A stretch of 64,000 nt of DNA from positions 1,349,501 to 1,413,500 of the forward strand of contig NZ_AFEJ02000002.1 of assembly GCF_000238775.2 (NCBI RefSeq), written 5' to 3'. The notes beneath the pieces were generated by a model, which saw only the letters and a program-made list of their open reading frames with translations, had not been told where the DNA came from and searched no databases. A program made the position numbers and the translations under genes. Source of the DNA: Acaryochloris sp. CCMEE 5410 (GTDB taxonomy: Bacteria > Cyanobacteriota > Cyanobacteriia > Thermosynechococcales > Thermosynechococcaceae). This document shows, in pieces, positions 4,372 through 32,102 of this stretch (positions are counted from its first letter, which is position 1; each line of letters opens with the position of its first letter).

Positions 4372-5046
4372 TTACTCTCTCATCACATAACCCACGCCCC
4401 TGACCGTCTGAATTAACCGCTTTTCTTGGTTCTCTTCTAGCTTGAGACGAAGGTAGCGAATGTAAACTTCGATGATATTTGAGTCCCCCATAAAGTCGTA
4501 GCCCCAGACTTGTTCCAGGATGCGATCGCGGGTCAATACCTGGCGAGGATGCATCATCAAATACACCAGCAAATCAAACTCTTTGGCCGTTAGCTCAATG
4601 GAGCGTTCACCCCGGAAGATCTCACGGGTGCGCTGGTTAAGGGTCAAGTTAGAGAATTCCAAAACATCGGGATCTTCTTCTTGGGTTCGCCGCAAGTGGG
4701 CTCGCACCCTGGCTAACAGCTCTTCGATGCTAAAGGGCTTCACCATATAGTCATCCGCCCCGGCATCCAGCCCTTCGACCCGATCGCTAATTTCATCTTT
4801 GGCGGTCAATAAAATGACGGGTACTTTATCCCCAGTTGCCCGCAGACGGCGGCAGACTTCAACACCAGAGAACCCTGGCAACATCCAGTCTAGGAGAATC
4901 AAATCCGGTTGAGACTCGCGAGCAGCGGTGAGTCCGCCGATGCCATCATTGGCCACGGTCACCTGATACCCCTCATGGGTCAGTTCCATCTCAACAAATT
5001 GAGCCAGTTTGGTTTCGTCTTCAACCAGGAGAATATGTGCTGTCAT
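4372..5046 (-). CDS. OmpR/PhoB-family response regulator
   Basis: The 224-residue protein has an N-terminal receiver domain with acidic residues E9-D10, phospho-acceptor D53 in LILLDWMLP and conserved K103 in MVKPFS. A C-terminal winged-helix domain follows, with ELTAKEFDLLVYL and RGVGYVM. It would be phosphorylated by the kinase encoded immediately upstream, whose stop overlaps this start by four bases (5043-5046), a classic sign of translational coupling. The pair resembles cyanobacterial stress or metal two-component systems; I cannot assign an orthologue (NblR-, RppA- or ManR-like) from sequence alone. Confidence 0.92.
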   Translation of the reverse strand: MTAHILLVEDETKLAQFVEMELTHEGYQVTVANDGIGGLTAARESQPDLILLDWMLPGFSGVEVCRRLRATGDKVPVILLTAKDEISDRVEGLDAGADDYMVKPFSIEELLARVRAHLRRTQEEDPDVLEFSNLTLNQRTREIFRGERSIELTAKEFDLLVYLMMHPRQVLTRDRILEQVWGYDFMGDSNIIEVYIRYLRLKLEENQEKRLIQTVRGVGYVMRE

Positions 5047-6557
5047 ATTTTTGCTTCAGGAGATATGGGTAACGTCACGGTGAATGTACTGCCTTCACCC
5101 TCGGCAGACAGGACACTGACTTGTCCTCCCATGCCTTCGGTAAAGGTCTTGACTAGGGAGAGGCCCAGACCAACGCCACCGGTACAGCGGGCTCGGGCTT
5201 CATCTAATCGATAAAAACGTTCAAAAATGCGGGACTGTTGTTTGAGAGGAATACCATCGCCGCGATCGCACACATGAATCAAAGCTGTGTCCTCTCGTTG
5301 TTCTAGCTTCACAGTGACAGGTTCCGTCGTTGCAGAATATTTAATCGCATTTTCCACCAAGTTTACCAATACCTGTTGGAGACGCTTCGCATCAGCAAAA
5401 ACGGGAATTAAAGGAGACTCAAACTCCAAATCAATCTCACGCTGATTAAACTTGTCTGCCATATTAACGACTTCTACCGCCACATCATTCAGAATCAACG
5501 TCTCCAGATGATAAGGCATATACCCATCATCCGCTCGGGCTAAACACAGCAAATCTTGCAATAACTGAATCGTCAGGTCCGCCTCAGCCGTAGAGATTTC
5601 CAAGGCTTCCCGCTGCATTTCAGTCAGGTTATCGCCCCGCCGTTGAATACTTTGCAAATAGCCCCGGACGATCGTGAGAGGTGTTCGCAGTTCATGGGAG
5701 ACATTGCTCACAAACTCTCGCTGTCGCTCCGTAGCATGCTGCTGCTCATGCCAGGCCTCAGATAGGCGCTCCAACATCCGATTGAAAGTCTCTGTCAATT
5801 CCTGGATTTCACTGGGCGCATTATCAATTTCTACCTTTGTCTTCCCTAAATCATCCGGCGAAATGGCTTTTGTCATTAAGTCCATTTGGCTTAAGGAGCG
5901 TAAGGAACGATGAACATACCAAGTTAAAGCCAAAGTGATCAAGACAACGGCAACTGAACTAGCCAAAGCCAGGGATTGCACACTAGCGATAAACTGGCGT
6001 TGATCCTCAGTAATATCTTGAGCTACAAATAACGTTCCCAAAGACTGGTTCCTCACCATTAAAGGGCTATGGCAGGCGACAAAATCTCGTCCTTGAATGT
6101 GATAAACCTTGGGGACAATGCTGTCTCGGAAAGCCGTTGCCAACGTACCAGGGCCTTCAAATCGTTGCCACGTTGGCCCCGACATATTGGCAGACATCGC
6201 CACCAAATTTTCTTGGGAATCGTTGACCCACAGCAGTAAATTACGTCCTGACCGATTGTTAATCGCCTTTTCGATACTCTTTTGCAGCGGGAACATCTCA
6301 TCTTGTTGATAAAGCACCACATCATCCGCAATTCGATCGCTAATATCAACAATTTTTTGCTTATGACTAGAAATCAAAATCCGCTGCATCTTCCAGCTCG
6401 TCCATACAGCGACACTGGTTAACCCCACAGCAATCAGTCCTGCAATACTAGCCGTCAGCCGAAACTGGAGTGACTTAGGATTCACAGCTTGGCGCAACTG
6501 GGGAGAGACGTTTCGCCATCCCTTACCCAGGGAAGATTTGATCGGAAGTTCACCCAC
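5043..6557 (-). CDS. Membrane sensor histidine kinase
   Basis: This is a 504-residue kinase. A first membrane segment lies at about 33-55, then a periplasmic sensor region of about 135 residues, and a second membrane segment at about 195-214. A HAMP linker follows, then the HisKA domain with phospho-acceptor H288 in [10 protein letters not shown], and the HATPase domain with NLVENAIKYS (N box), DRGDGIP (G1) and GVGLGLSLVK (G2). The start appears to be GTG at 6557; no ATG lies before the first membrane segment. It is cotranscribed with the response regulator at 4372-5046, with a 4-base overlap. The upstream cupin gene ends 12 bases before it, so it may join the same operon. The signal sensed is not evident. 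Confidence 0.9.
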   Translation of the reverse strand: MGELPIKSSLGKGWRNVSPQLRQAVNPKSLQFRLTASIAGLIAVGLTSVAVWTSWKMQRILISSHKQKIVDISDRIADDVVLYQQDEMFPLQKSIEKAINNRSGRNLLLWVNDSQENLVAMSANMSGPTWQRFEGPGTLATAFRDSIVPKVYHIQGRDFVACHSPLMVRNQSLGTLFVAQDITEDQRQFIASVQSLALASSVAVVLITLALTWYVHRSLRSLSQMDLMTKAISPDDLGKTKVEIDNAPSEIQELTETFNRMLERLSEAWHEQQHATERQREFVSNVSHELRTPLTIVRGYLQSIQRRGDNLTEMQREALEISTAEADLTIQLLQDLLCLARADDGYMPYHLETLILNDVAVEVVNMADKFNQREIDLEFESPLIPVFADAKRLQQVLVNLVENAIKYSATTEPVTVKLEQREDTALIHVCDRGDGIPLKQQSRIFERFYRLDEARARCTGGVGLGLSLVKTFTEGMGGQVSVLSAEGEGSTFTVTLPISPEAKI

Positions 6558-7209: not shown

Positions 7210-7621
7210 CTATTGAACACTGACTGGATAGTCAGGGGTAGGGGTCAGGAGACGACTGAAGGCATAGTTCCCCAGCTTTAGCGTAATCGCATAGGATTGA
7301 GTTTGTCCTTGATTGAGGTCACCATCACTCACTTTAGGTAAAGTCACTGGGTTAATCCCTTCCCCCCACAAATAGAAACCCAGGCTTAAAACTGGATTTG
7401 CGTTTTTCCAAAGTTTCGCTGCTCAGTTTCTTACAATCATCCGCCTGTGTTGTTTTGAACCTGAATTTTTCAGATTCTGTCTCTAAAAATTGACAGCCAG
7501 TTTGAGTCAATTTAATCACTTCTACAGGTTGATCGACATCGCTGGTTTGAGTGTTTGAATCACAGCCTTCCACAAGGACAAATGCGAATAAACTTTCATA
7601 CCGAATGAGTCTAGATTGCAT
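7210..7621 (-). pseudogene. Exported cyanobacterial protein, frameshifted
   Basis: The first part (7621-7352) has a short hydrophobic leader ending in LVEGC, possibly a lipobox. It then reads VIKLTQTGCQFLETE and KTTQADDCKK, and runs into a stop at GGRD. Shifting frame near 7370 gives FYLWGEGINPVTLPKVSDGD, then NYAFSRLLTPTPDYPVSVQ and a stop at 7210. The two halves form one coherent small periplasmic or lipoprotein sequence, so a single-base frameshift has broken the gene. The junction KSSFKPGFYL also looks shortened compared with what such proteins usually carry. I cannot name a function. A sequencing error would be the alternative explanation. Confidence 0.65.
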
Positions 7622-7981
7622 AGGGTTTCATCTCATCAAGGGGGCTAAAGCAAAGCCCTATCTCAAGTTTAAAGTTGTACAGATGATATCGCCCTGACCC
7701 CTAAATAAATTTTTCCTGAGAAGTATGTAGAATCAACCCAAACAGGCTTTAGGGTCACTGTTTAAAATCCTTCAATCCTGCCATAAATCACTTTCTTAAC
7801 CAATCCCAATCTCCTTCTCAGCAAAATTTCAGATTAGTCAGTCTCAATCAAGAATGTCTGCCTGAACCTTCTGAAGAATTCGCCAAAAGAACTTCCTATT
7901 TCAGCCAAATTTCCATTTAATGCAACAATTAATTAGGCAATTTTAGTTGCACCAAAGATTAATCCGTCATGGAGAGTATCA
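7622..7981. other. Intergenic region, divergent promoters expected
   Basis: These 360 bases separate the broken minus-strand gene from the plus-strand DPCAAK lipoprotein. The stretch is AT-rich and shows no coding frame, tRNA or strong hairpin. The last 60 bases before 7982 should contain the lipoprotein gene's promoter, but I see no clear -35/-10 pair. Confidence 0.5.
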
Positions 7982-8323
7982 ATGAAAGTTAAATATATGG
8001 CAATGGTTGCCACCGTTTCTCTACTCAGTGTTGGTGGCCTGGTGATCGGTTGCGCTAATCCCTGTGCTGCTCAAGATAAGAACGGAGCCGAAACAACTGA
8101 AACAGCAGATCCCTGTGCTGCAAAGTCAGGCGATCCCTGTGCTGCCAAAGATGACCCCTGTGCTGCCAAAGGAGATCCTTGCGCCGCTAAAGATGACCCC
8201 TGTGCTGCCAAAGGAGATCCTTGCGCCGCTAAAGATGCCCCCTGTGCTGCCAAGGCAGATCCTTGCGCTGCAAAAGATGACCCCTGCGCTGCCAAATCTG
8301 AAGACCCCTGTGCAGGCTCCTAA
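7982..8323 (+). CDS. Cysteine-repeat (DPCAAK) lipoprotein
   Basis: The 113-residue protein starts with a signal peptide (MKVKYMAMVATVSLL) ending in a lipobox VIGC at C24, so the mature protein should be lipid-anchored. Almost everything after residue 41 is a tandem array of a roughly 7-residue unit, D-P-C-A-A-K-x, ten copies long, plus an earlier NPCAAQ unit. That gives 11 repeat cysteines plus the lipidated one. At DNA level there is a longer 42-base unit, nearly identical at about 8170-8255, which suggests growth by slippage or unequal recombination. Regularly spaced Cys, Asp and Lys on a surface anchor suggest metal binding or disulfide cross-linking, but this is inference. I recognise no named family. 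Confidence 0.8.
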   Translation: MKVKYMAMVATVSLLSVGGLVIGCANPCAAQDKNGAETTETADPCAAKSGDPCAAKDDPCAAKGDPCAAKDDPCAAKGDPCAAKDAPCAAKADPCAAKDDPCAAKSEDPCAGS

Positions 8324-8514
8324 TCCTTTTCCCCATAGCCTTCGTTAAGGCTGTGCTCAATTACAACTACAGATAACGATAGAATGCTGGAGGTAGATAC
8401 TATGGTGTCTACCTCTGTTCTATCTGCTGTTTTGCGAGAATTTGATCCATCACCATTGCCAACCAGAGATCCAAGCAAATGCACTGGGACAGATAGTTAG
8501 CAAAACCGTTTTCA

Positions 8515-8976
8515 ATGATTAATCAGATGAAATCAACCACTATGTCTTTACGTGTCAAGTTTGCCTGTTTCTGTGTGGCGTTTGCATTGCTCTTCAGCAG
8601 TATTATCAGCCCGCCTGCCCTTGCGGTGACTCAAATTCAACTTAAGGATCTCACCTATGAAGAATGCTCTGCTGAGGTTGGCAAAGGAACCGTCACCAGT
8701 GGAGGACCAATCATGCGATTGGCCAACTGTTTTATCATTTCGGGGACAACGGTCAACAAATCCGGCAAACCTGTGATGGATGCAGACGTATTTGGCCGTA
8801 TCTTTGATGCAAACAACAATCCAGCCATGGAAAACCGGGGACGGTTGGGAGCCATTGATATCGTTGAGCCTGGAGAAGGCACTTTCGAGCTAAGGGTGAG
8901 TGTTCCCGATGCCCTAGAAACCCCCTTTAAACTTGAACAGTTTAAGGCAAGCGGTTTTACAGCCAAAGTCCGTTAA
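8515..8976 (+). CDS. Secreted protein of unknown function
   Basis: The 153-residue protein has a long signal peptide (FACFCVAFALLFSSIISPPALA) with a probable AxA cleavage at ALA/V near residue 38. The mature part has two cysteines in the first third (EECS and ANCF) that could pair. It then reads ISGTTVNKSGKPVMDADVFGRIFDANNNP, resembling a carboxypeptidase-regulatory or transthyretin-like beta domain, but this is only a fold impression. ATGs at 8515 and 8527 are both possible; the signal peptide is compatible with either. It ends 20 bases before a strong terminator. No function can be assigned. Confidence 0.7.
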   Translation: MINQMKSTTMSLRVKFACFCVAFALLFSSIISPPALAVTQIQLKDLTYEECSAEVGKGTVTSGGPIMRLANCFIISGTTVNKSGKPVMDADVFGRIFDANNNPAMENRGRLGAIDIVEPGEGTFELRVSVPDALETPFKLEQFKASGFTAKVR

Positions 8977-31397: not shown

Positions 31398-32102
31398 TTA
31401 TTCCATGAAAGAACGAATGGTATCTGAGAGAATATCGAGGATTCCAGATTGCTGAATATAGGGTTGAGCTTGTTTTAAGATAGGACCCGCTTCTTTTAAG
31501 AGGGGACCTGCATCTTCTAAGAGAGGAGCGGCTTCTTTAAGCAAGGGGCTAGCAGCTCCGATGGCTGGGGCAAATTGCTTACCCTTGGCAATGATGGGGC
31601 CATATTTTTGATAGGCTTCCAACAGCCGCTCACCATCTACTTCGACAGTGCTGGTGGGATAACTTTCAAGGGTATCTAGGATGGTAATTTTGCCATCTCG
31701 GCTAGCGTCTAATACCAGGGCAGAGCGAATGGCCTGACGACTGGCTCGTTTAGAAGGGGGAGACATGATTTCCCCGGCTTCATCGAGCATGGCATCGCCA
31801 AAGGGGGTATTAAGTAACTGATCGAGCTGAGTAGAACTGACGGCAAAGGGGCGAGTGAGAATGTCGCTTACTTTTTCTGGCTCTTGTTCCGCTAACTCTA
31901 AATACACTTTTAGATCAGCAGGGGCACGACCTGTGTCAGCCAATTCTCGTAGGGAGCTAACCGGAACCGATCGGGCAATGGGGCCATATTTAAAGACAAC
32001 CTGTTCTGCAGCCCCAGAAGGTAATGCGCTCAATAGCACAGCCGCACAACTTCCTAATACATAATTCCACCATTTGCTGGTCTGTGATGTTGTTGAACTC
32101 AT
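31398..32102 (-). CDS. Exported DUF1400 protein with heptad tail
   Basis: The 234-residue protein has a signal peptide (YVLGSCAAVLLSALPSGAA, cleavage near residue 31). A DUF1400-like region follows: VVFKYGPIARSVPVSSLRELADTG, then LDQLLNTPFGDAMLDEAGEIM. In cyanobacteria this module usually precedes an alpha/beta hydrolase domain; here it stands alone. The last 60 residues hold five tandem 7-residue units of the type A-x-P-L-L-K-E (ASPLLKE, AAPLLED, AGPLLKE, AGPILKQ, AQPYIQQ). It should be periplasmic or lumenal. Function is unknown; loss of the hydrolase domain leaves a possible binding or assembly role. Confidence 0.72.
   Translation of the reverse strand: MSSTTSQTSKWWNYVLGSCAAVLLSALPSGAAEQVVFKYGPIARSVPVSSLRELADTGRAPADLKVYLELAEQEPEKVSDILTRPFAVSSTQLDQLLNTPFGDAMLDEAGEIMSPPSKRASRQAIRSALVLDASRDGKITILDTLESYPTSTVEVDGERLLEAYQKYGPIIAKGKQFAPAIGAASPLLKEAAPLLEDAGPLLKEAGPILKQAQPYIQQSGILDILSDTIRSFME

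Follow-up and report, generated by a model that had tools for sequence, protein, structure and literature searches.

Several described systems come close to the locus reported here. In Synechocystis, copMRS/copBAC encodes an exported ligand protein next to a two-component system of the OmpR type (PMC4284471). In the ScsB–ScsC and DsbD–TlpA systems, a DsbD_TM membrane protein is the partner of a thioredoxin-like protein that is exported, and ScsC also binds Cu(I) (PMC8900818). Bacterial metallothioneins of the SmtA type are small and cysteine-rich, and the 3-mercaptopropionate, cysteine and mercaptosuccinate dioxygenases resemble a cupin encoded at our locus. Thiol redox control outside the cytoplasm is poorly known in cyanobacteria, i.e. 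in oxygen-producing organisms that deal with copper at their membranes. The window analysed here, a stretch of 64,000 nucleotides from Acaryochloris sp. CCMEE 5410 (contig NZ_AFEJ02000002.1, positions 1,349,501 to 1,413,500), contains a gene for a lipoprotein with PCA repeats, which is divergent from the genes for a cupin, a histidine kinase and a response regulator (table 1). Taken together, the family to which this lipoprotein belongs, its putative sensor, a shared promoter signal and linked cysteine-redox enzymes suggest a response dedicated to thiol (or soft-metal) stress in the envelope.

Table 1. Features of the PCA-repeat locus, in window coordinates.
Feature	Position	Strand	Remarks
OmpR/PhoB-class response regulator	4372..5046	-	overlaps end of kinase gene
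membrane sensor histidine kinase	5043..6557	-	HAMP-HisKA-HATPase
thiol-dioxygenase-type cupin, 203 aa	6570..7181	-	divergent from repeat gene; H112, H114, H166 invariant
broken gene of secreted protein	7213..7621	-	frameshift, ~20 residues missing
predicted response-regulator operator TTCTCAGCAAAATTTCAG	7815..7832	+	direct repeat with 11-bp period, start codon about 150-170 bp downstream
PCA-repeat lipoprotein gene	7982..8323	+	113 aa, ATG start; homologues found
signal peptide (23 aa) of repeat gene	7982-8050	+	
predicted lipid-attachment Cys24 codon, repeat gene	8051-8053	+	
repeat array of repeat gene	~8108 to 8320	+	

The window protein contains 12 cysteines, i.e. C24 in the lipobox and eleven in repeat units (residues 28, 45, 53, 60, 67, 74, 81, 88, 95, 102 and 110), which are mostly spaced 7 residues apart. 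Eight units read exactly DPCAAK, with NPCAAQ, APCAAK and DPCAGS as the others, giving the consensus (D/N/A)PCA. The lipobox LVIG-C24, recognized by inspection and unchanged in four Acaryochloris genomes, follows a signal peptide and conforms to the bacterial lipoprotein pattern [LVI][ASTVI][GAS]C, which suggests that the protein is exported and lipidated. At the DNA level, units follow each other at 21 bp from start to start, and Tandem Repeats Finder reported a period of 42 (4.4 copies, 88% match, 8111-8296) along with a second call of period 21 (8135-8313). Since the 42-bp unit encodes two successive protein repeats that differ in codon use (CCC TGT GCT GCC AAA and CCT TGC GCC GCT AAA), neighbouring copies differ largely synonymously, with 123 synonymous versus 29 non-synonymous pairwise codon differences in the P-C-A-A-K part of the units. 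Thus, the initial annotation was right in describing a lipoprotein with eleven regularly spaced cysteines and a 42-base repeat unit; its further statement that the protein consists almost entirely of repeats holds for the mature part, in which a short linker following the 23-residue signal peptide leads to the repeats at residues 43-113. The protein matched no Pfam or NCBIfam family and the repeat matched no solved structure; an AlphaFold model with a pLDDT of 40, obtained from a shallow alignment, hints at disorder. The repeat also gives rise to overlapping open reading frames at 8064-8348 (+) and 8071-8295 (-), which we regard as incidental. Downstream, 8515-8976 (+) encodes a secreted protein with two cysteines in its mature part, which is conserved adjoining the repeat gene in close relatives only, and an unrelated 21-bp tandem repeat (3.4 copies) occurs at 31468-31538.

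Rather than being the solitary oddity it had first seemed, the protein is one form of a large family, apparently with its own regulon. Scanning with the window protein alone found matches only in three Acaryochloris metagenome genomes, while a profile built from 13 copies detected the family in 127 of 388 Cyanobacteriia genomes, or 97 of 334 when only the better assemblies were considered. Our family table comprises 135 genes in 99 genomes, many of them fragmented metagenome assemblies in which repeat counts may be collapsed; it includes 58 stand-alone copies and fusions to thioredoxin (about 33), YHS (about 40) and DM13 (4), after four genes left as 'other' by automatic classification had been recognized by sequence as two thioredoxin and two YHS fusions. 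A module of leader plus repeats thus occurs either alone or joined to one of three Pfam domains, i.e. thioredoxin (PF00085, E 6e-13), 'Electron transfer DM13' (PF10517, E 5e-24) or YHS (PF04945, E 8e-8). Family members combine an M(K/R)xx(Y/F) leader, seen in 113 of the 135 genes, with multiple (D/N)PCA(A/G/S) units, and the window protein with its MKVKY start and 11 units belongs among them. A lipobox-like motif is found in 46 of 58 stand-alone copies versus 13 of 38 YHS fusions.

The number of repeats per protein ranges from 2 to 16. Their cysteine is kept in 977 of 994 units (codons TGT 594, TGC 383), figures that somewhat favour intact units because genes were recognized by at least two of them. 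Both presence in related genomes and conservation of the cysteines in homologues, on which the initial annotation had made its reading depend, have thereby been borne out; retained cysteines and homologues also rule out a chance low-complexity reading frame. Distances between consecutive cysteines are, by falling frequency, 6, 7, 5 and 8 residues, and no fixed geometry is therefore kept. The repeat has no counterpart among the curated Pfam and NCBIfam families, none of 13 members tested matched a metallothionein family, and a Pfam 'Cornifin' match in two members was taken as low-complexity similarity rather than homology. A plasmid-borne origin was also considered, but no plasmid match was found. 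As a text search for repeat strings in openly licensed papers returned none describing the family, the PCA-repeat proteins apparently represent a widespread and so far undescribed family of exported thiol-rich proteins. One member (L067:9264-9561) is frameshifted inside the repeat array, by either a slippage mutation or an assembly error.

From one species of the genus to another the number of repeats changes, with 11, 11, 6 and 6 PCA motifs in proteins from four Acaryochloris genomes, three of these being metagenome assemblies in which repeats may have collapsed. The genome comprises 8.1 Mb; the window is part of its contig 2, and a second family gene is located on contig 1 (G000:C1:2300896-2301177). 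This second gene encodes an ordinary signal peptide in place of the lipobox and has no adjacent YHS gene, while in two sister genomes its counterpart precedes a gene for a YHS protein by 106-115 bp. The broken gene between cupin and repeat genes is intact in some relatives (L051:4484-4957), where its product shows a weak cupredoxin-like match below cut-off.

The layout of repeat gene, cupin, kinase and regulator recurs far beyond the genus. Among the 91 copies with at least 4 kb of flanking sequence on both sides, 53 have the cupin within 4 kb, where chance would give roughly 0.2% (one gene in a 5-Mb genome). By class, this linkage holds for 27 of 39 stand-alone, 18 of 24 thioredoxin-fused and 6 of 25 YHS-fused copies, and linked copies come from 61 genomes, 39 genera and 14 of the 17 GTDB families in the table. 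When neighbours were clustered, the most recurrent were the cupin (62 genomes), the kinase (39), the regulator (34), a DsbD_TM protein (27) and thioredoxins (22), followed by an FGE-domain lipoprotein (14), a DCC1-like thiol-disulfide oxidoreductase (9, beside YHS-fused copies) and thioredoxin reductase (6). The DsbD_TM gene lies directly downstream of thioredoxin-fused copies at a median of 76 bp, and its product has the marks of a CcdA/DsbD electron carrier, i.e. a score of 40.0 bits against a cut-off of 27.1 and two 'PC' cysteines (C97, C205) conserved in 27 of 27 sequences. Some of these loci also carry a thioredoxin and a thioredoxin reductase, and in a member of the genus (G005, L057) two repeat-thioredoxins, a DsbD-like carrier, a thioredoxin reductase and a thioredoxin stand in a row beside the cupin. 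The window copy has neither a thioredoxin nor a CcdA-like neighbour; a distant CcdA-like gene is present elsewhere in its genome. The FGE-sulfatase-domain lipoprotein gene is located upstream of stand-alone PCA-repeat genes at a median of 136 bp (L146:1221-2177 and 13 other genomes), and C285 and C294 are invariant in its products.

A second line of evidence is a promoter signal. Upstream of cupin-linked copies, the spaced tetramers TTCT-N10-TCAG and TCAG-N7-TCAG are enriched and combine into a TTCTCAG-N4-(T/C)TCTCAG-like direct repeat with an 11-bp period, typically 100-170 bp ahead of the start codon. Direct repeats of this period are expected for OmpR/PhoB-type regulators. The element was defined on linked copies and tested on unlinked ones, with similar sequences and overlapping regions removed. 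Exact TTCTCAG-N7-TCAG occurred in 8 of 48 unlinked copies versus 0 of 813 control upstream regions (Fisher 5e-11) and never on the opposite strand of the tested upstream regions; TCAG-N7-TCAG was found in 21 of 48 versus 13 of 813, and a profile trained on linked copies only recognized, at score 11, 27 of 48 unlinked copies and 24 of 813 controls. The same element precedes family genes in other genera, and among eight exact matches in the whole 8.1-Mb genome, that at 7815-7832 is the only one upstream of a family gene. A recognizable operator is present in only about half of the copies by the profile, and most thioredoxin-fused copies are without one. Together with the genome comparison that follows, these data provide good evidence for what would be a single regulon acting in trans on family copies, with the linked regulator, to judge by co-occurrence, as the probable partner of the predicted operator. 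This comparison covered 20 genomes selected because they have copies unlinked to the cupin; most belong to a single GTDB family, and they are thus not independent. The kinase and the cupin were each found in 19, mostly elsewhere than the repeat copies, and the regulator (about 69-79% identical) lay beside the kinase at 17 of 19 loci.

Between two predicted membrane segments, the sensor region of the kinase contains a cysteine, Cys162, which is conserved in 35 of 39 linked homologues and, in a second comparison including the window, in 20 of 20. Such a lone sensor cysteine would fit thiol-redox and soft-metal sensing alike and does not tell them apart. For the cupin, a profile of 18 members matches the structures of cysteine, 3-mercaptopropionate and mercaptosuccinate dioxygenases with E-values down to 2e-17, and its three invariant histidines are those expected of the iron site, which together mark it as a thiol-dioxygenase homologue. 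As it has no apparent signal peptide, the cupin would act in the cytosol, presumably on small thiols there, and would not reach the exported protein.

What could be the role of such a protein? On balance, we consider it probable, if by no great measure, that a lipid-anchored, disordered thiol polymer is the output of an envelope thiol-redox stress regulon. The unstructured cysteine polymer would face outwards from a cell membrane, and the kinase, by means of its conserved sensor cysteine, might detect oxidant, thiol imbalance or a soft metal. The OmpR/PhoB-type regulator would then bind the direct repeats and induce PCA-repeat genes wherever they are located in the genome, and the repeat thiols could serve as a sacrificial or exchangeable thiol store. 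Given the thioredoxin fusion and the CcdA/DsbD-like transporter in many relatives, electrons could come from cytoplasmic NADPH, whereas the window form would need a separate protein as reductant. Retained cysteines, variable spacing, the disordered model and the lack of CxC or CxxC motifs would suit a flexible chain of thiols better than a folded metal-binding site; the repeat cysteines would be free thiols with a redox function. Against this reading stand the operator that only about half of the copies have, the apparently cytosolic location of the cupin and the missing thioredoxin or CcdA-like neighbour of the window copy. Among three roles that had initially been suggested, it is the redox role that gene neighbourhood, domain fusions and the shared operator favour, with metal capture as a possibility and no specific support for a cross-linked coat.

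The main alternative is an envelope buffer for copper or other soft metals, in which a metal-sensing two-component system would control an extracytoplasmic cysteine array that binds Cu(I), Ag(I), Hg(II), Cd(II) or Zn(II), as with Synechocystis copMRS. CopM and CopRS do provide a cyanobacterial precedent for an exported metal binder paired with a two-component system (PMC4284471), and the kinase and regulator score well against the CzcS/SilS/CopS and CzcR/SilR/CopR models. Their scores stay below cut-off, however (TIGR01386/TIGR01387 of NCBIfam; kinase 212.8 bits versus 292.55, regulator with the cztR/silR/copR model 244 versus 279.2), and WalK, PhoB and NblR models match equally well, NblR being the closest NCBIfam model of the regulator although also below its cut-off (288.4 versus 300 bits). 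A mycobacterial cyclase has a copper-sensing YHS domain with three conserved cysteines and an aspartate (PMC4626032), but 36 of 38 YHS fusions in the family carry a single cysteine after the repeats. At 118 loci, the 6 kb around the repeat genes contained no DKTGT-type P-type ATPase, none of the recurrent neighbour families with an identity was a metal transporter, and the variably spaced cysteines do not form CxC or CxxC clusters. Copper and thiol stress nevertheless overlap chemically, and the Scs proteins, in which ScsC and ScsB couple thioredoxin-like redox proteins to copper tolerance, combine both (PMC8900818). Arguments from gene neighbourhood cannot separate redox from copper stress, and we regard metal buffering as possible, though doubtful.

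Two other readings have less in their favour. Even spacing, predicted disorder and the lipid anchor could all serve a structural coat, with intermolecular disulfides cross-linking the protein at the cell surface, but thioredoxin and DM13 fusions are hard to explain in this way and the nameable recurrent neighbours are mainly thiol-redox and signalling genes instead of wall or surface-layer genes, which makes a coat very unlikely. It also seems very unlikely that the repeat cysteines are a scaffold for sulfinate, formylglycine or another modification introduced by adjacent cysteine-oxidizing enzymes. Two unrelated enzyme families that include cysteine oxidizers, i.e. those of the cupin and the FGE-domain lipoprotein, do adjoin the repeat genes; yet the cupin is apparently cytosolic and has structural relatives that use small thiols, and in the FGE-like proteins the first canonical catalytic cysteine is replaced, as judged by eye. 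Of six genomes with PCA genes that were tested, three have no MNIO enzyme (PF05114), and the MNIO genes of the window's own genome are more than 500 kb away from the repeat gene, unlike the adjacent MNIO gene of a bufferin.

Returning to the envelope thiol-redox regulon, one can also conceive of a more integrated scheme, which we put forward only tentatively and think rather unlikely as a whole: the PCA repeat could be a portable redox capacitor, an unstructured string of cysteines attached to various redox domains and charged via CcdA-like carriers. With its lone sensor cysteine, the kinase would sense how far this capacitor is oxidized, in a feedback loop controlling all copies via one operator. 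If the regulon as such is real, about a third of the sampled Cyanobacteriia genomes would possess a set of sensor, promoter signal and effector for such a response, and the repeat would offer a simple polymer for study as a natural thiol or metal buffer.

In comparison with the known systems, the cupin resembles thiol dioxygenases but scores below the Pfam cut-off for CDO_I. In contrast to SmtA-type metallothioneins, the PCA lipoprotein is predicted to be exported and lipid-anchored, carries single cysteines 5-8 residues apart instead of the clustered CxC or CxxC motifs, and has no Pfam metallothionein match. Relative to ScsB–ScsC and DsbD–TlpA, PCA systems add the repeats, a thiol dioxygenase and a dedicated two-component system, whereas the window form lacks both a thioredoxin domain and a linked DsbD-like gene. 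Finally, PCA loci differ from copMRS/copBAC in that no linked efflux ATPase was found and in having, instead, cysteine repeats, several linked cysteine-redox genes and a TTCTCAG-N4-TTCTCAG-like operator.
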